A stretch of 38,394 bases of DNA from Desulfobulbaceae bacterium (GTDB lineage: Bacteria; Desulfobacterota; Desulfobulbia; Desulfobulbales; Desulfocapsaceae), in assembly GCA_019163335.1 (NCBI GenBank), contig JAFLKM010000078.1, forward strand, positions 1 to 38,394. The letters run 5' to 3'. Shown here one piece after another: positions 6,699 to 37,936 of the stretch. Every line of letters begins with the position of its first letter. The first letter of the stretch is position 1. The notes beneath the pieces are model-generated. The model saw only the letters and a program-made list of their open reading frames with translations, was not told where the DNA came from and ran no database searches. Made by a program: the position numbers and the translations under genes.

Positions 6699-9221
6699 AT
6701 GAGAATGCCATCTATCCAAAAAAAAACGGTTGCGGTCAAAGGGATGCATTGTGCTGCCTGCTCCAGCCGCATCGAGAAGGTGTTGCAGAGTCTTGATGGC
6801 GTAGAGCATGTGGCGGTTAACCTGGCGACGGAGAGCATGGAGCTGGCCTGGAAGGCGGATGTCATCTCTTTTGAAGCGATTGTCGGTCGGGTCAAGGATT
6901 TGGGCTTTGAGCTTGAACAGGAAAATGCCAACGAGGAGCTGGTTCTTGAGCTTGCAATCAGCGGTATGCACTGCGCAGCCTGTTCGACCCGGATAGAAAA
7001 AGTCGTCTCCGCCATGACCGGGGTGAGCGCGGTGCGGATCAACCTGCTGACCGAAGCAGGGCTTGTGACTTATCGTCGTGGGCTGGTCAGCCAGCGCCAG
7101 ATCCGTGCGGCCATTGCCGGCTTAGGTTTTGAGAGCAGGCCTGTGACCGCGAGAGTCGACCAGTTTGCCAGGAAGCGACAGGAGACCAATCAGCGCCTCG
7201 CGATCATGAAAACCCGGCTTATCTGGTCGTTGGGCCTGGCCTTGCTCCTGCTCTGTTTCTCCATGGGGGAAATGTTGGGACTGCCGCTTCCAGGGGCTAT
7301 CAAGCCTCATTTGCACCCCTTGCGATTTGCCCTGATCCAGTTTGCTCTGGTGGTGCCCATTATGCTGCTCGGCCGCAGTTTTTATCTTATTGGGATTCCA
7401 GCTCTTCTGCGGCGGGCTCCGAATATGGACTCCTTGATTGCCATTGGTACCGGCGCCGCCTTTATCTATTCCACCTGGAATATGGTGGAGATTGTGCTGA
7501 GCACAGATCCACACCGGCAGGCCATGCTGGCCATGGACCTCTATTTTGAGTCGGCAGGGGTGTTGATTGCCCTCGTCTCGCTGGGAAAATTTATGGAGAC
7601 CCGCTCCAAATCACATACCTCGGACGCCATTGCCGGCCTGATGCAGTTGACCCCGGATCGTGCGATTCTGTTAAGAAGAAAGGATGATGGTGATGGCGAG
7701 ATGGACCAGGTTGACATCCTGGTGGAAGAGATTGAGGCCGGAGATCTGCTTCTGGTGCGGCCTGGTGAACGCATTCCCGTTGACGGCGTAATCACCGGCG
7801 GGCGTACGGTGGTTGATGAATCCATGCTCACCGGTGAAAGTTTGCCTGTCACCAAGGCCGAGGGAGACCGGGTTACCTGCGGGACTCTCAATAAAAGTGG
7901 GGCGGTACGGGTCAAAACCGAGCAGGTTGGTCAGGATACTATTCTGGCCCGCATTGTCAGGACAGTGCAGGAGGCGCAGGGCTCAAAGGCCCCCATTGCA
8001 GCCCTTGCGGATCGAGTAAGTCTCTACTTTGTGCCGGTGGTGATGATCGTTGCGGTGCTCACAGGCCTTGCCTGGTATTTTGCCGGCGGGGCAGAGTTCA
8101 CGCTTGCCCTCCGTTATTTTATTGCGGTCATGGTAATTGCCTGTCCCTGTGCCATGGGGCTGGCCACTCCCACATCAATCATGGTGGGAACCGGGCGCGG
8201 CGCCCAGCTTGGGGTGCTTATCAAGAGCGGTGCGGCCCTGGAGATTGCGGAAAAGGTGACAGTGCTGGTCTTTGATAAGACTGGAACCCTGACCCATGGC
8301 CGGCCGGAGCTAACGGATCTTGTCAATGTGAGCGCCGGGCAGAGCGATGAACGGCTGTTGTATCTGGTTGCATCCCTTGAGCAGTCTTCGGAACATCCCT
8401 TGGCGGAGGCCCTGGTTAGGGAGGCTCAGTCAAAAGGTATTGCATTAATTCAGCCGGAGAATTTTGTTGCGATCATTGGTCGTGGAGTCTCCGGCCGGGT
8501 GGATGGACAGGAGATTTTGTTTGGCAATCGTCAACTTTTAGAAGACCGAAGCCTTGCTGTCGAAGGGGTAAAAGAAGAGGTTTTCCATCTTTCAGGGCAA
8601 GGAAAGACGGTGTTGTTTCTTGCCATCGATGGCCGTTTAGCCGCTCTTGTCGCCATCGCCGACAAGTTGAAGCCAGAGGTGCCGGCGGCAGTGTCGCGGC
8701 TAAAACAGATGGGCTTGCGACTAATCATGCTGACCGGTGATCAGGAAATGACGGCGAAGGCCATTGCCGCTCAGGCTGGCATTGACGAGGTCATTGCCCA
8801 GGTCCTTCCGGATAAAAAGGCAGACACGATTAGAGAATTGCGCCAGCAGGGATTGTGTACGGCCATGGTAGGCGATGGGATTAACGATGCACCGGCCCTG
8901 GCCGTTGCCGATGTGGGGATCGCCATGGGGACAGGAACCGATATTGCCATCGAGTCCGGTGACATTGTTCTCATGCAGGGCAATCTGGACGGGGTAATCG
9001 TCGCCCTGCGCTTATCCCGGGCGGTGATGCGCAATATTCGCCAGAATCTTTTCTGGGCATTTGCCTATAACGTGATTGGTATCCCGGTGGCTGCCGGTCT
9101 GCTTGTCCTGTTCGGTGGCCCCAGCTTAAATCCAATGATTGCCGGAGCGGCCATGGCCATGAGTTCGGTGTCGGTTGTAGGGAACGCCCTGCGATTGAGA
9201 CGATTTAATGGCGTTCTATAA
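6699..9221 (+). CDS. copA: Cu(+)-exporting P-type ATPase
   Basis: About 840 aa, a P1B-1 ATPase that pumps Cu(I) out of the cytoplasm. Two N-terminal heavy-metal domains carry GMHCAAC (first pair C18/C21, second near residue 95). Eight membrane segments are expected. The transmembrane metal site is C482-P-C484 ([13 protein letters not shown]), the phosphorylated Asp is D526 in DKTGT, the nucleotide domain has SEHPLAEAL, and the hinge is GDGINDAPA. The last two helices have [12 protein letters not shown] and [10 protein letters not shown], the YN and MSSS-type motifs that define Cu(I) specificity. ATG 6699 (or 6705) is chosen because the conserved metal domain begins within ten codons; a TTG at 6651 would add 16 unrelated residues. 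No copper chaperone or CueR-like regulator is adjacent. Confidence 0.93.
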
Positions 9222-20550: not shown

Positions 20551-20628
20551 CTTCTCAATTATCTGTTTTTTTTGGGGACGGTGTGAGGAATCATTCAGCG
20601 TCATATAGCAGGAGTGGCAGGAGGCATA

Positions 20629-21267
20629 ATGGTTATCAGTGAAACTGTGTATGGAGATTATCTGGCCTTTCTCTTGTCAGGTAAAAAAGCTGAGTGTGTG
20701 ACCATTGTGCAAGGTTTAATTGACCAGAAAATCTTTGTAAAAGACCTCTACCTTGAGTTGTTTCAACGATCGATGTATCAGGTGGGAAAGCTTTGGGAGG
20801 AAAATAAGGTTTCCGTGGCCACAGAGCATATGGCTACAGCCATTACCGAAGGACTTTTGCAGTTGGTCTATCCCATGTTGTTTTCTGCAGACCATGTTGG
20901 CAAAAGTGCGATTATTGCCTGTGTGCCGCAGGAATATCATCAACTGGGGGCTAAAATGGTTGCGGATATTTTTGAACTCAATGGCTGGGATGGCTATTTT
21001 GTCGGGGCAAATACGCCTACGGAAGACCTTCTTGGAAATATTCATGAGAAGAAGCCCGATCTTGTAGCCCTATCCATGAGCCTTTATGTTAGCCTCAAGG
21101 GCATGGATGAAATGTTGCAGGGCTTGACGTCCACCTTTCCCCAGCTGGATATTATTGTTGGAGGCCAAGGATTTTTATGGGGAGGGGTTGAGGTCGTCAA
21201 GAGTTATCCGAATGTCCAGTATGTCAAATCCCTCGACTCTCTGGTCCAAATTATCAAAACCTACTGA
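20629..21267 (+). CDS. free-standing cobalamin-binding protein with CarH-type photosensor motifs
   Basis: 212 aa. Residues 1 to about 85 form the four-helix B12 cap, and the rest is a Rossmann-like B12-binding domain. The cap has W56 followed by exactly nine residues and E66-H67 (W-x9-EH), the signature of CarH-type adenosylcobalamin photoreceptors. The lower domain has E102-x-H104-x2-G107, so His104 should be the lower axial cobalt ligand, plus GANTPTEDLL, SMSLYVS and GGQGF where the nucleotide loop sits. There is no MerR DNA-binding domain as in CarH, and no methyltransferase partner gene. ATG 20629 has AGGAGG 4 nt upstream; the GTG at 20614 does not. A PAS histidine kinase starts 9 nt after the stop, so the protein probably signals to it. 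Light response is an inference from the motifs; a cobalamin-level sensor is the main alternative. Confidence 0.85.
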   Translation: MVISETVYGDYLAFLLSGKKAECVTIVQGLIDQKIFVKDLYLELFQRSMYQVGKLWEENKVSVATEHMATAITEGLLQLVYPMLFSADHVGKSAIIACVPQEYHQLGAKMVADIFELNGWDGYFVGANTPTEDLLGNIHEKKPDLVALSMSLYVSLKGMDEMLQGLTSTFPQLDIIVGGQGFLWGGVEVVKSYPNVQYVKSLDSLVQIIKTY

Positions 21268-21276
21268 TTTGTTGAT

Positions 21277-22818
21277 ATGTCCGAAAGAGATTGTCACGAG
21301 ATCATCTATCACTACATGATGCAGGATGCCTCGGTTTTTTTCATGCATCTTGATTGCCAGGGAACTATTCTGTCAGTAAACAGCTATACTGAAATGCTTA
21401 TCGGATCAGGCTTTAGCCATGGGAAAGCGAATCTCTTTGATGTCGTGGTTAATTTTGGCCATGTTCCTTCCCTCGTTGAATTATTCTCTCTTAATGATAA
21501 GCCGAGACTATTAAATATCAGTACTCAATCCGGCATGCCTCAGTCATTCTATTTTAAGTTTTTTCCCCTGAACGATGACTTCTTGATGATCGGACAGCAG
21601 GATAGCGAAGAGATTGAAAACCTGCGTGTGAATCTCCTCTCGGCAGTCGATGAGGCTAATAATCTGTCTCGCGAGTTACAGAAAAAAAATGTGCAATTAA
21701 CCCGGCTCAATGGTTTGAAAAATCAGTTTATGGGGATGGCTGCCCACGATTTGAGAAATCCACTTGCTATTATTCTGGCCTACAGCGAGTTTTTATTTGA
21801 AGACACCAAAAACGTGTTAAGTGACAAAAGCGCAAGCCTGATCTTAAAAATAAAAAACTCCAGTAAATTTATGCTGAACCTGTTGAATGATTTGCTCGAT
21901 GTCTCAAAGATCGAATCCGGAAATCTGGGTTTGCGACTGGAATTGACGGACATCCAACCATTAATTCAAGATTATATTGATTTGAATCAGGTGGTTGCGT
22001 CAACGAAAAAGATTGAGTTGCGGTATCATCGAAATGACAATCTTCCCCAGGTCAATATTGATCCTCCCAGGATAGAACAGGTTCTCAATAATTTATTGTC
22101 CAATGCGGTGAAGTATTCTTTGTGTGAGACTGTTGTCAATGTTGATATAGTTCATCGGGATACCCACGTGGTCGTGGCTGTTCGGGACCAGGGACAGGGG
22201 ATTCCCCCTGAGGAGTTGCAAAGGATCTTCCAACCATTTCAAACCGTAGCTATCAAGGGAACCGCCGGTGAGAAAAGTACGGGGTTAGGGCTGATGATTG
22301 CCCAGAAAATTGTTACCGCCCATGGTGGTGAGTTATGGGTTGAAAGTTCAGTGGGGAAAGGGACAAGCTTTTTCTTCAGCCTTCCTGCTGCCGGTAAGAC
22401 GGCGGCTCAACAGACGATTTCCCCGGAGAGAGTTTCAGAACATCGGCAAGATGAAAAAGAAAGTGAATCTTATTTCTGGCCTTTACTCAATGCCTCTGTG
22501 ATCAAGGAATACAAGGCCCTTGATCACGATTTTTTTAAAGAATTGCTTGAGATGTTTTTCGCTGAGACCCCTGTTTTAATAGAGGAAATCAAAGCTTTAA
22601 TTGCCAAAAAAAATCTTGATCAATTAAAGTTGTCACTCGCCCAACTTCGTGGTTCCTGCTCAAGTATTGGGGCCAGCTACCTTTCCGGGTTGTGTGATTC
22701 GTTGCTGAATTTTCCCGATGAAGAGCTATTAAGCAGCGCTTTCGATTTTCCCGAACAGTTTGAAAATCTGTATGAACAGACAAAACAGGCTCTCATTGCT
22801 GCACAGAATATTCAGTAA
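21277..22818 (+). CDS. soluble PAS histidine kinase with degenerate HPt-like tail
   Basis: 513 aa, no membrane segment. An N-terminal PAS-like domain (about 12-108), a coiled coil (113-150), HisKA with His157 in AAHDLRNPLA, and a HATPase with NNLLSNAVKYS, DQGQGIPPEE and STGLGLMIAQ. From about residue 405 comes an alpha-helical domain that aligns by eye with histidine phosphotransfer domains, except that the H-x-L-K-G element reads AQLRG: the phospho-histidine is alanine (about A455). The tail may dock a receiver without carrying phosphate. The gene starts 9 nt after the cobalamin-binding protein gene and is followed by a REC protein. With no membrane helix, its input must be cytoplasmic, which fits the cobalamin protein as partner. 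Confidence 0.88.
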   Translation: MSERDCHEIIYHYMMQDASVFFMHLDCQGTILSVNSYTEMLIGSGFSHGKANLFDVVVNFGHVPSLVELFSLNDKPRLLNISTQSGMPQSFYFKFFPLNDDFLMIGQQDSEEIENLRVNLLSAVDEANNLSRELQKKNVQLTRLNGLKNQFMGMAAHDLRNPLAIILAYSEFLFEDTKNVLSDKSASLILKIKNSSKFMLNLLNDLLDVSKIESGNLGLRLELTDIQPLIQDYIDLNQVVASTKKIELRYHRNDNLPQVNIDPPRIEQVLNNLLSNAVKYSLCETVVNVDIVHRDTHVVVAVRDQGQGIPPEELQRIFQPFQTVAIKGTAGEKSTGLGLMIAQKIVTAHGGELWVESSVGKGTSFFFSLPAAGKTAAQQTISPERVSEHRQDEKESESYFWPLLNASVIKEYKALDHDFFKELLEMFFAETPVLIEEIKALIAKKNLDQLKLSLAQLRGSCSSIGASYLSGLCDSLLNFPDEELLSSAFDFPEQFENLYEQTKQALIAAQNIQ

Positions 22819-22984
22819 TAGTCAGCTGCCGTGAGATTGCAGGCTGTTTTTTATCGTATTACGAAAATTGTTTTGCACCTGGCATTTGAAGAGACGTTAA
22901 GAGAAACGGGGTTGAAAGAACAAGGCACTTATCCCGCTTATCGGGGTTTGCTTAATGGCTTGAATTTGGAAAAGGAGTTCTTGC

Positions 22985-23827
22985 ATGGAAAATGCAGTAA
23001 AACCAGCCATTCTGATTGTTGATGATGATCAGGATCAGCTTGATATTGTAAAGCAGATACTCGTTAATTTTGACGTTCAGTGCACCCTTGTTCTGTCGGG
23101 AGTGGATGCCGTCAAGGTTGCAAAGCACAATGAATTTGCTGTTATTCTGATGGATGTGCAGATGCCGGGCATGGGCGGGGTGAAGACATTGGAGCTCATT
23201 CGTAACTTTGGTTCTTCAAAAAAGACGCCGATTATTCTTATGACCGCTCTGGCATTTGACAGTGAGATGATCAAGAAAGCGTATCAGAGTGGCGGGGTGG
23301 ATTATCTTTTTAAACCCTTGGATCCTGTGATTTTGCAGTCTAAAGTGCAGGTTTTTATAGAGATGTATGAACAGAAGCAACTGATTAGCAAACAGCAGGA
23401 GATTTTGAATCAGCACGCGACCGAACTGGAAGATGCCAATTTGCAACTGCGGCAGGAAATTTCGCAACATCGACTTTTCTATAAAACATTGAAAGAATGC
23501 CAGCACTTGCTGGTCGAGAGATTCAACAAACTTAATCAGTGTCCACCGAATGACACGAAGCTGATTCTGGAGGAAGTTGAAAGTTTTGTTAAAGAATATC
23601 TTGCGTTTATGGATAAACTTCAGTCGGTGGAGTTGTTATCTGTTGATTCCATCGAGTCCGTTGATCAGGCCTTTCGAATTTCCAACCGGCTCATGACCCT
23701 CTCGACCAGAAATGTAACCTTATTACAGAGCATTGAAGGGTTGAGATTAGAGAATAAGGATCTGAAAAATCGTCTTAATTTGGCCATCCATGAGAAAAAA
23801 TCAAACTGTCTTGATCAAGAGGAGTGA
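22985..23827 (+). CDS. response regulator: receiver plus coiled-coil, no known output
   Basis: 280 aa. A receiver domain (about 6-125) has D13-D14-D15, phosphoacceptor D57 in VILMDVQMPGMGG, T and K at the usual switch positions (MTALAF and LFKPLDP). After it comes a long coiled coil (EQKQLISKQQEILNQ onward) and a helical C-terminus that I do not recognise, ending in a second coiled coil. No DNA-binding, GGDEF or HD domain is present. ATG 22985 has an AAGGAG site. It follows the PAS kinase by 166 nt, a gap that holds no convincing gene. It is the natural phosphate acceptor for that kinase and may act by binding another protein. Confidence 0.85.
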   Translation: MENAVKPAILIVDDDQDQLDIVKQILVNFDVQCTLVLSGVDAVKVAKHNEFAVILMDVQMPGMGGVKTLELIRNFGSSKKTPIILMTALAFDSEMIKKAYQSGGVDYLFKPLDPVILQSKVQVFIEMYEQKQLISKQQEILNQHATELEDANLQLRQEISQHRLFYKTLKECQHLLVERFNKLNQCPPNDTKLILEEVESFVKEYLAFMDKLQSVELLSVDSIESVDQAFRISNRLMTLSTRNVTLLQSIEGLRLENKDLKNRLNLAIHEKKSNCLDQEE

Positions 23828-31840: not shown

Positions 31841-31986
31841 CCCTTTATGATAAATTCATGGCAAGACCTTTGAGAATAGAACTGGCGGGTGGCCTCTACC
31901 ATGTGACCTCTCGCGGTGATCGGCGCGAGGATATTTTCCTCTGCGAGATGGACCGATATGTTTGGCTGGAAATCTTGGGTGAGGTG
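31819..31986. repeat. direct repeat, right copy (RAYT 5' end)
   Basis: Second copy of the 167-nt repeat at 31620-31786. It belongs to the intact transposase gene and overlaps the left 19-bp inverted repeat of the element. Confidence 0.85.
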
Positions 31987-32691
31987 TGTAAAAGGTTTAA
32001 TTGGATCTGTCATGCCTGGTGTCAGCTGACCAATCACTATCATCTTGTGGTGGAGACGGTCGAAGGTAATCTATCTCAAGGCATGCGACATCTCAATGGG
32101 GTGTACACCCAGAAACTCAACCGTACTCATCATAGAGTTGGTCATGTTTTTCAGGGACGCTACCGGGCAATCATGGTGGAAAAGGATTCGCACCTCCTGG
32201 AATTGATGCGGTATGTGGTACTTAATCCCGTACGGGCTGGAATGGTCAGTGTTGCAGGGGATTGGCCGTGGAGTTCCTATGGCGCCATGGTTGGTATGGC
32301 CAGTCGGCCTGACTGGCTACAGACTGACTGGGTGTTGGGACAGTTTGGGAGTACTCACGACAAGGCTGTAACGGGCTATATGGATTTTGTTCAGGCTGGA
32401 GTGGGCCAGCCTGGTGTGTGGGAATCCTTGCGCGGCCAGATTTATCTCGGCTCTGAGGCGTTTGTTGAGCGAATGCAAATGCTAGTTGCGGACCGATCTG
32501 TAATGACCGAAATTCCTCGCGCCCAACGTCGGCCGCAGGCCAAGCCACTTGAACACTACCGCGATACCATATCAGATAAAAAATCTGCCATGGTTGCTGC
32601 GTATGCCACCGGCGATTATACCATGCAGGAAATCGCGACGTGTTTCAGCGTTCATTATTCAACTGTAAGCCGGGCTGTAAGACAAATGTAA
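31858..32691 (+). CDS. REP-associated tyrosine transposase (RAYT, Y1 HUH family)
   Basis: 277 aa, a normal length for a RAYT protein. The N-terminal Y1/HUH nuclease has GLYHVTSRGDRRE and the metal-binding HUH motif NHYHLVVET; the tyrosine region follows around RHLNGVYTQKLNR, then GHVFQGRYRAIMV and LNPVRAGM. The C-terminus has a helix-turn-helix (ATGDYTMQEIATCFSVHYST). RAYTs cut single-stranded DNA at short palindromes and spread REP sequences. The gene is flanked by perfect 19-bp inverted repeats (31812-31830 and 32707-32725). Its leader and first 43 codons are repeated just upstream. The frame is intact. Confidence 0.92.
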   Translation: MARPLRIELAGGLYHVTSRGDRREDIFLCEMDRYVWLEILGEVCKRFNWICHAWCQLTNHYHLVVETVEGNLSQGMRHLNGVYTQKLNRTHHRVGHVFQGRYRAIMVEKDSHLLELMRYVVLNPVRAGMVSVAGDWPWSSYGAMVGMASRPDWLQTDWVLGQFGSTHDKAVTGYMDFVQAGVGQPGVWESLRGQIYLGSEAFVERMQMLVADRSVMTEIPRAQRRPQAKPLEHYRDTISDKKSAMVAAYATGDYTMQEIATCFSVHYSTVSRAVRQM

Positions 32692-36742: not shown

Positions 36743-37936
36743 ATGGGCAAGGAAAACACTTTCAATTTCACTGAAGACCGATTGAGAAATATTTTACTTC
36801 CGGAATCTGGCAAGCGAGAATATTACAACGACACCACCGAAAAAGGGTTACGCCTGGCAGTGTCCGGAACCGGCATGAAGTCCTTCCAGTTTCAAAGATG
36901 GAGCCCTGAGAAGCAAAGGCCCGTTATTGTCACCCTGGGCAAGTGGCCCGACCTGCCCTTGAATTTGGCAAGAGCTAAAACCAATGCCATGCGGCAAGAG
37001 GTCAGCAAGGGCAATGATCCACAAGCAGAGAAAAAAGCTCTCCGCGACACCATGACCGTGGCTGAACTCCTTGACCGCTACTTAACCGAACACTCAATAC
37101 CACACAAGCGATCCGCCAAAGATGACCAGGCAATAGTCCGCCTTCACCTCAAGCCAACATTCGGCACCCGGCGCGTCAACGAGCTGGCACCTGAAGCTGT
37201 ACGATCCTGGCACAACGGCCTGACCAAGACCATGAAACCAGCATCAGCAAATAGGCGCCTGGCATTGTTGCGATCCGTTTATAACGTCATGATGCCCGAC
37301 CTTCCCAATCCATGCCGTGGCGTCAAGATGTTCAAGGAATATTCCCGCGACCGATTCTTACAACCAGAAGAGCTTGAAAGATTCTTCCTGGCCATCGAGC
37401 ATGAACGCGCAACCGGGAATCCGGATATTGCCGACTACTTGCTGTTGAGTATCTTCTCTGGTGCAAGGCGCGCCAATGTGCTGGCTATGCAATGGAAGGA
37501 TGTTGATTTTAGCCGGGAACAGTGGCGCATTGCTGGCGAGGACTCGAAAAATAAGAGCATCATGCTTGTTCCTCTGGTTGGTGAAGTCCTGGAGATTTTG
37601 ACCAGGCGGCGGCTGACTGCTTCCAGTGTTTTTGTCTTTCCGAGTTATGGGAAGACCGGGCACCTGGCAGAACCCCGGAAAGGATGGGACAGGATAAAAA
37701 AGACCGCTGGCCTTGCTGATGTCCGCCTTCACGATCTGCGTCGAACCATGGGCAGTTATCAGACGATCAGCGGCGCGTCAACGGCCGTCGTCGGCAAGAC
37801 CCTGGGACATAAGAACCCGGCAAGTACGGCCGTATATGCAAGAATGACCCTTGATCCTGTTCGAGAAGCAATGGAAAAGGCAGTCCAATTAATGAAAACC
37901 CCGGTTGAGAAGAAGGTTGTTAATATCAAAAAGTGA
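36743..37936 (+). CDS. tyrosine recombinase integrase of a tRNA-Arg element
   Basis: 397 aa, P4-like layout. The N-terminal arm-binding domain (about 10-95: EYYNDTTEKGLRLAVSGTG) is followed by a core-binding SAM-like domain (105-190) and the catalytic domain. Catalytic residues: Arg in SGARRANVLAM, His-x-x-Arg in LHDLRRTMG, His in LGHKNPAS, and the nucleophile Tyr in STAVYARM. It excises and inserts an element at the tRNA-Arg 3' end next door. A strong GGAGG ribosome site precedes ATG 36743. It reads away from the attachment site and is followed at once by two small coiled-coil genes. Confidence 0.93.
   Translation: MGKENTFNFTEDRLRNILLPESGKREYYNDTTEKGLRLAVSGTGMKSFQFQRWSPEKQRPVIVTLGKWPDLPLNLARAKTNAMRQEVSKGNDPQAEKKALRDTMTVAELLDRYLTEHSIPHKRSAKDDQAIVRLHLKPTFGTRRVNELAPEAVRSWHNGLTKTMKPASANRRLALLRSVYNVMMPDLPNPCRGVKMFKEYSRDRFLQPEELERFFLAIEHERATGNPDIADYLLLSIFSGARRANVLAMQWKDVDFSREQWRIAGEDSKNKSIMLVPLVGEVLEILTRRRLTASSVFVFPSYGKTGHLAEPRKGWDRIKKTAGLADVRLHDLRRTMGSYQTISGASTAVVGKTLGHKNPASTAVYARMTLDPVREAMEKAVQLMKTPVEKKVVNIKK

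Follow-up and report, generated by a model that had tools for sequence, protein, structure and literature searches.

A B12-binding protein encoded beside a sensor kinase

The window analysed here, by which we mean the whole stretch of 38,394 nucleotides of contig JAFLKM010000078.1 (assembly GCA_019163335.1, our genome G000), comes from a Desulfobulbaceae bacterium found in sediment. Three genes follow one another on its forward strand: one for a B12-binding protein of 212 residues, one for a histidine kinase, whose open reading frame (ORF) starts 9 nucleotides further on, and one for a receiver protein, whose ORF starts 166 nucleotides after the kinase (Table 1). The first two share one operon. 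A first-pass annotation made from the letters alone had read the first of these as a CarH-type cobalamin sensor coupled to a two-component pathway. Our results suggest that this protein is likely to be the light-sensing part of a B12 photoreceptor divided over several proteins, and that it would signal through the co-encoded PAS kinase.

Pfam recognises in the 212-residue protein the domains B12-binding_2 (PF02607, E = 2.9e-12) and B12-binding (PF02310, 6.4e-16), and finds no DNA-binding domain, MerR-type included, in agreement with the annotation. The residues W56 and E66-H67 (hereafter W-EH) and the motif E102-x-H104-x2-G107 are also where the annotation had placed them. Among solved structures the nearest are photocobilins. 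In a phmmer search of PDB sequences 8j2x and 8j2w came top at 1.2e-21 and 8j2y scored 4.6e-13 (three of the best four distinct sequences are photocobilin chains in this range); they were followed by 8jbs (9.2e-10), by methionine synthase and others, and by CarH from 4.1e-7. The CarH equivalog model gave 50.9 bits against a cut-off of 400, and similarity to AerR (7te2) was weak (phmmer, E = 0.11). The assignment to the CarH kind holds for the W-x9-EH and ExHxxG residues; it does not hold for the nearest relatives, which are photocobilins, nor for the residue after the Trp, which is Glu and not His.

Homologues were gathered by scanning one genome per species, which gave 75 loci; counts out of 77 add the window protein and its paralogue in the same genome. 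The completeness of the genomes reached through these loci is not stated and absences there are thus soft. By record titles and lineages, the phyla hosting the loci include Thermodesulfobacteriota, SAR324, Bacteroidota, Spirochaetota, Verrucomicrobiota, Fibrobacterota, Riflebacteria, Myxococcota, Acidobacteriota and Pseudomonadota. Within the order, B12-protein matches at E<=1e-10, distant ones counted, occur in 13 of 193 genomes, and at the level of the genus in 2 of the 11 genomes listed, the window's own among them. Elsewhere in the order we also noted two candidate CarH genes (L114 and L117), judged by eye from a helix-turn-helix-like N-terminus joined to a W-EH B12 domain.

The W-EH and ExHxxG residues are conserved across this set (Table 1). 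The bare W-x9-EH pattern is by itself no evidence, since it is not rare: it occurs three times in the 42,189 residues of the window's stop-to-stop frames. What goes beyond chance, as the alignments indicate, is its placement inside an aligned B12-binding domain together with its conservation. We also ruled out that the invariance is an artefact of the search. The scan peptide KMVADIFE is present, and both motif-bearing scan peptides are absent, in 74 of the 77 sequences; the motif was therefore not selected for by the way in which these sequences were found.

In the 513-residue kinase Pfam matches HisKA, HATPase_c and Hpt, and has no PAS match in the N-terminal 141 residues. The PAS kinase announced by the annotation 9 nucleotides after the B12 gene is nevertheless there: the ORFs agree, and the PAS domain emerges from structure prediction. 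An AlphaFold2 model of the N-terminal domain (predicted local distance difference test, pLDDT, 86.5) retrieved PAS structures in Foldseek (24 PDB matches at E<=0.001), including FixL and NifL, which are heme and flavin PAS domains, and the PAS domains of PpsR. With a PAS domain, a HisKA domain that has its His and a HATPase_c domain, the protein is a PAS sensor histidine kinase.

The annotation had proposed a survey of homologues for the W-EH residues and the kinase neighbour. Both turn out to be conserved, and the pairing is found from both sides. A protein sharing the PAS N-terminus of the window kinase, usually a kinase itself, lies at most 3 kb away in 61 of the 75 loci. The PAS N-terminus or a kinase core is found downstream of the B12 gene in 68 loci, and in 59 the two are joined in one frame that lies no more than 5 kb downstream (60 with the window counted). 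A search that started from the kinase N-terminus found matches in 10 of 297 genomes of the phylum, at 15 places, and a W-EH B12 protein is in the neighbourhood at 14 of them, or at 12 of 13 without the window genome's own two (the count uses extended loci, L095 as L121 and L101 as L078). At the exception (L103/L122) no W-EH B12 protein occurs in the 10 kb examined. This reverse search is not wholly independent, because the kinases that went into its profile were themselves neighbours of B12 proteins, and only 13 candidates were scored in genomes with many.

The same PAS domain sits on a GGDEF domain directly after the B12 gene in L017, L021 and L024, the three examined of seven similar loci. 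This points to the PAS domain, and not the kinase core, as the predicted partner of the B12 protein. A distant B12 protein that lacks the EH (L120, 23% identity) adjoins a kinase core without the PAS family of the window kinase. The Hpt domain of the kinase had escaped the annotation. None of the five aligned copies (window and L003-L006) has a His at the presumed phospho-acceptor place; in L004-L006 a His stands three residues before it. The Hpt domain is perhaps a docking domain. As to the receiver proteins near other members of the family, they end in a LuxR-type helix-turn-helix in L029 and L030 and in SpoIIE in L004 and L005, and in six of the ten scanned no output was recognised.

Table 1. 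Features of the B12 protein-kinase locus, in window positions
Feature	Position	Strand	Remarks
B12-binding photoreceptor-type protein	ORF 20614/20629-21267	+	212 residues from ATG; four-helix B12-binding_2 plus Rossmann B12-binding
Shine-Dalgarno-like AGGAGG	20619-20624	+	4 nucleotides upstream of the ATG at 20629; sequence reading
W56 codon	20794-20796	+	equivalent of SasPcob W61; 77/77
E66-H67 codons	20824-20829	+	equivalents of SasPcob E71-H72; E 76/77, H 77/77
E102-x-H104-x2-G107 codons	20932-20949	+	77/77 for E102, H104 and G107; H104 is the predicted lower cobalt ligand
Soluble histidine kinase, 513 residues	21277-22818	+	PAS, coiled coil, HisKA, HATPase_c, degenerate Hpt; Pfam and model
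PAS domain and signalling helix	21277-21699	+	AlphaFold2 model, Foldseek; conserved putative partner module of the B12 protein
HisKA (residues 148-215) to HATPase_c (residues 262-371)	21718-22389	+	H-box AAHDLRNP present
Hpt-like domain (residues 422-504)	22540-22788	+	PF01627, 8.8e-10; no His at the presumed phospho-acceptor place
Response-regulator receiver (residues 9-121), protein of 280 residues	22985-23827	+	Response_reg PF00072, 2.1e-23; C-terminal tail without recognised output domain

Globins and heme-oxygenase-linked domains in relatives

The annotation also missed a third partner that occurs in relatives of the window protein. Among the neighbours of the B12 genes is a protein of about 150 residues with a DNHxNH motif, for which sequence searches of Pfam, NCBIfam and PDB gave nothing convincing. 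Its fold was revealed by a model built on an alignment of 31 sequences (pLDDT 93.2). Foldseek ranks 1 to 7 are phycobiliproteins, and phycobiliproteins or smURFP make up 40 of the 50 matches listed (TM score 0.65/0.74 for smURFP). The best matches of the model thus suggest a phycobiliprotein-type globin, which is a statement on the fold only.

Counting the same strand only, 41 of the 75 loci have a globin gene no more than 4.5 kb away from the B12 gene (42 if anywhere in the locus is accepted). A heme-oxygenase-linked C-terminal domain lies within this distance in 11 other loci, from which the opposite-strand heme oxygenase of L027 is excluded by the same rule. No locus has both and 23 have neither. 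Apart from these neighbourhoods, globin and heme oxygenase are found in the same genome in at least four cases (G001, G002, G004 and G054).

The association is also found when one starts from the globin. Of 395 genomes, 13 contain a match: eight of them have the globin joined to a W-EH B12 domain in one protein, four have it near such a domain, and in the remaining genome (G591) it stands beside the same kinase type where the locus ends. The globin comes first in the globin-B12 fusions, L089 too. Such a fusion is a photocobilin-like architecture, and since fused forms exist we infer that the separate globin and B12 genes represent a split photocobilin. The spacing between D59 and W86 in the globin is 27, against 26 between D270 and W296 in SasPcob, a match that we take as a lead only. 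Globin-first fusions were seen in L089, L096-L098, L104, L128-L132, L134, L135, L138 and L140 (some of these are the same place twice), and a PAS-family protein lies within the short locus of each of them except L089 and L135.

Partners seem to come and go. On the tree of the B12 proteins at least nine changes of the globin label are forced by supported branches, and seven changes of the heme-oxygenase label; partners were therefore gained, lost or exchanged repeatedly. The tree omits L046 (split reading frame) and L001 (a shorter copy of L078), and it labels L015 as heme oxygenase on a 48-codon fragment only. This fragment (L015 7810-7935) is an open frame immediately before the B12 gene; it is similar to part of the heme oxygenase and may be what is left of one.

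Homology between the heme-oxygenase C-terminal domain and the globin was considered and gained no significant support: hhalign gave E = 0.16 and a probability of 0.4% over one stretch, and a global run gave nothing. Since this alignment is insignificant, the equivalence of the two is argued from partner exchange only. All 12 aligned heme oxygenases of this fused type have a His at the position matching the heme-binding proximal His. Beside the B12 genes of L034 (7297-7986) and L091 (2603-3400) the C-terminal domain occurs with no heme oxygenase part detected, so that it may function independently.

The window genome itself encodes a second system. Its second B12 protein (L078 8313-8990, on contig 61) is 34% identical to the first and retains the W-EH. 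The operon to which it belongs (L078 8313-13553) continues with a fusion of heme oxygenase and C-terminal domain, then a kinase whose PAS domain belongs to the same family, and lastly a hybrid of PAS, kinase and receiver. Its heme oxygenase matches PF01126 at 6.5e-15, and heme oxygenases of this family need oxygen. For this reason the strict anaerobe imagined by the annotation is weakened and finds no support in the genome, nor did we find evidence for the roles it had suggested, light avoidance or the protection of B12-dependent enzymes. The supply of adenosylcobalamin (AdoCbl) would fall to a CobA-type adenosyltransferase (2.3e-65), no PduO-type enzyme having been found in the window genome. 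A profile search, in which positive controls were detected, found no globin in this genome nor in the sister genome G043.

A proposed split light sensor and its alternatives

The domains, residues, gene pairing, PAS and globin folds and partner exchange described above come from sequences and models. Photocobilin and CarH work offers analogies for what may follow from them, namely AdoCbl binding, photochemistry, contact with the PAS domain, the direction of signalling and the output. The B12 protein would bind AdoCbl with H104 below the cobalt and with W56 and E66-H67 around the adenosyl group. In SasPcob the equivalent Trp (W61) stacks on the adenosyl ribose and the Glu-His pair (E71-H72) forms a dimer-interface network over the adenosine, as described in PMC10979010. 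Light in the green range would break the Co-C bond, and the four-helix bundle would be remodelled around E66-H67 and the dimer. The altered B12 subunit might then bind or release the PAS domain of the kinase in trans and so change autophosphorylation. According to the same source, mixing lit photocobilins with a separate diguanylate cyclase domain alters the activity of that domain in trans (PMC10979010). A response regulator would receive the signal, for which the protein encoded at 22985 is a plausible candidate. In many relatives a globin, either as a protein of its own or as part of the B12 protein, or else a heme-oxygenase-linked domain would complete a photocobilin in split or fused form; the window copy is probably a B12-only form.

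Several observations weigh against reading the protein as a light sensor of this kind. We found no published experiment on this B12-kinase family. The signature of light-responsive cobalamin-binding domains is given in PMC11796333 as GxxW, EH, GxxH and GxxxP. The window protein has GxxW, EH and GxxxP, whose Pro is kept in 73 of the 77 sequences, and lacks GxxH, with Q101 for the Gly (Gly in 6 of 77, Asn in 52), so that the full four-element signature is absent. Position 57 is Glu in the window protein (E in 75 of 77, A in two), and the bis-His light state of CarH is thus unavailable to it; the counterpart of this position is not His in photocobilins and CtMerR either (Gln in SasPcob, Tyr in AbDPcob, Arg in CtMerR). 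One of the 77 sequences, L060, has Gln in place of E66, with W and H retained. The annotation had named as contrary evidence homologues that keep the kinase neighbour and lose the W-EH, and no clear case was seen: only L060 departs, and there the PAS family is absent within 3 kb though a kinase lies just upstream. Seven of the 75 loci have neither PAS nor kinase core downstream within our limits. Three of these are early contig ends (L040, L055 and L061); besides L060, the others are L077, with a kinase 4.3 kb off, L038, with an upstream fragment only, and L064, with none. For the globin model, all Foldseek E-values are at least 0.02, heme globins make up 10 of the 50 matches listed (the best at rank 8), and none of these 50 is a photocobilin. 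Neither the window copy nor its nearest relative has a globin or heme-oxygenase partner nearby, which makes the photocobilin analogy weaker for the window copy. Finally, the annotation was right that a receiver follows the kinase in the window, where Response_reg is matched, yet in L003, the closest relative, no receiver was flagged next to the kinase, and this weakens the case for the receiver as part of the pathway.

What else might the protein do? It could be a sensor of AdoCbl status, reporting the apo or holo state to the kinase while light is incidental. The photoreceptor residues all serve AdoCbl binding as well, the window genome encodes the AdoCbl-forming CobA, and in D. shibae B12 itself is needed for the contact between PpaA and PpsR, a dependence seen by two-hybrid according to PMC10890935. 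We nevertheless consider this unlikely, as a vitamin sensor has no evident use for the bilin-type partners linked to the family (globin in 41 and heme-oxygenase-linked domain in 11 of 75 loci), although the window copy has neither. A redox or oxygen sensor, in which cobalamin or PAS does the sensing and the B12 protein tunes the PAS, would suit the presence of FixL, NifL and other PAS domains with heme or flavin among the fold matches of the PAS domain. This seems to us quite improbable: the W-EH is conserved and its published role is to hold the adenosyl group, which AdoCbl photolysis fits better than redox sensing does.

A metabolic corrinoid protein of the methyltransferase type, lying beside a kinase by chance, would share the B12-binding fold and could account for a weak similarity to NCBIfam pyl_corrinoid (2.4e-9, 36.9 bits against a cut-off of 215.3). 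Yet methyltransferase corrinoid proteins carry DxH. The window protein has ExH instead, keeps the W-EH, is paired with PAS across phyla and has its best matches in the CarH model and the photocobilins. We rejected this candidate on motifs and neighbours and hold it to be very improbable.

The photoreceptor reading can be set against known systems. The photocobilins SasPcob and AbDPcob, the best solved-structure matches, have in common with the window protein the W-EH, the ExH and a residue other than His after the Trp; in the relatives described here a phycobiliprotein-type globin is fused to the B12 domain or encoded next to it. In contrast, the window protein has no globin domain, and the PAS kinase that is its putative output is encoded by a gene of its own. 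SasPcob has the order B12-globin whereas our fusions have globin-B12, and PMC10979010 reports that both orders of photocobilin domains exist. CarH, a MerR-type repressor and AdoCbl photoreceptor, has the same four-helix bundle and Rossmann B12 domain, W-x9-EH and ExHxxG, whereas the window protein lacks the DNA-binding domain and has Glu for the light-state His next to the Trp. AerR/PpaA resembles the B12-kinase pair here in that the B12 protein stands alone and its gene is linked in transcription with that of the target (PMC10890935), but that target is the DNA-binding repressor PpsR/CrtJ and not a histidine kinase. In photoglobins, or BBAG-2 bilin-binding globins, a B12-binding protein and a globin are encoded together (PMC10151467), as in our relatives, whose third gene encodes a protein modelled with a phycobiliprotein-type globin fold; here, however, a heme oxygenase is recognised in only 3 of 42 globin-bearing genomes. 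The term "histidine kinase" occurs 0 times in the main text of PMC10151467. In the papers that we consulted we met no account of a W-EH B12 protein that is separate from, and occurs with, a histidine kinase, though part of this may be in print in the photoglobin paper. The photoglobin paper of Schneider et al. (2022) is said to describe photoglobin-B12 associations with signal-transduction domains.

In the B12-kinase arrangement we seem to see a known light sensor with two pigments in a widespread form whose subunits are separate. If this is true, B12 photoreception would no longer be confined to proteins that bind DNA themselves or are fused to enzymes, and would include two-component systems whose sensor can detach. 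Its reach would cover sulfate reducers, Bacteroidota, Spirochaetota, Verrucomicrobiota and other groups, with many inhabitants of sediment among them, and the separate subunits would make convenient optogenetic parts.

The source of a possible globin pigment

A recognised heme oxygenase is present in 3 of the 42 globin-bearing genomes, against 13 of the 32 searched genomes among the others. The 39 globin-bearing genomes without one include, for example, that of L067 (globin at 8632-9093). We considered anaerobilin synthase as a general source of bilin and rejected it, the HutW family scoring above the cut-off in only 2 of 44 genomes. HutW-type matches below the cut-off also occur in 9 of 14 control genomes, and these weaker matches are probably generic radical S-adenosylmethionine relatives. 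Either the globin obtains a pigment by another route, or it has no pigment, or parts of the genomes are missing from the assemblies; of the heme-degrading families, the searches covered heme oxygenase and HutW.

These observations lead us to a wider idea, which we hold possible but doubtful. There might be a modular class of light sensors with separate and interchangeable subunits, one for B12 sensing, one for the second pigment and one, with the PAS domain, for output, in which the second unit was swapped repeatedly between globin and heme-oxygenase-linked domain, and in organisms without heme oxygenase, many of them anaerobes, the globin's pigment might come from an oxygen-independent route. 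If the globin holds a bilin in such genomes, the source of the pigment becomes a directly testable question.

Some mobile DNA lies near the right end of the window, with an IS200-like transposase at 31858-32691 and a phage-type integrase at 36743-37936.

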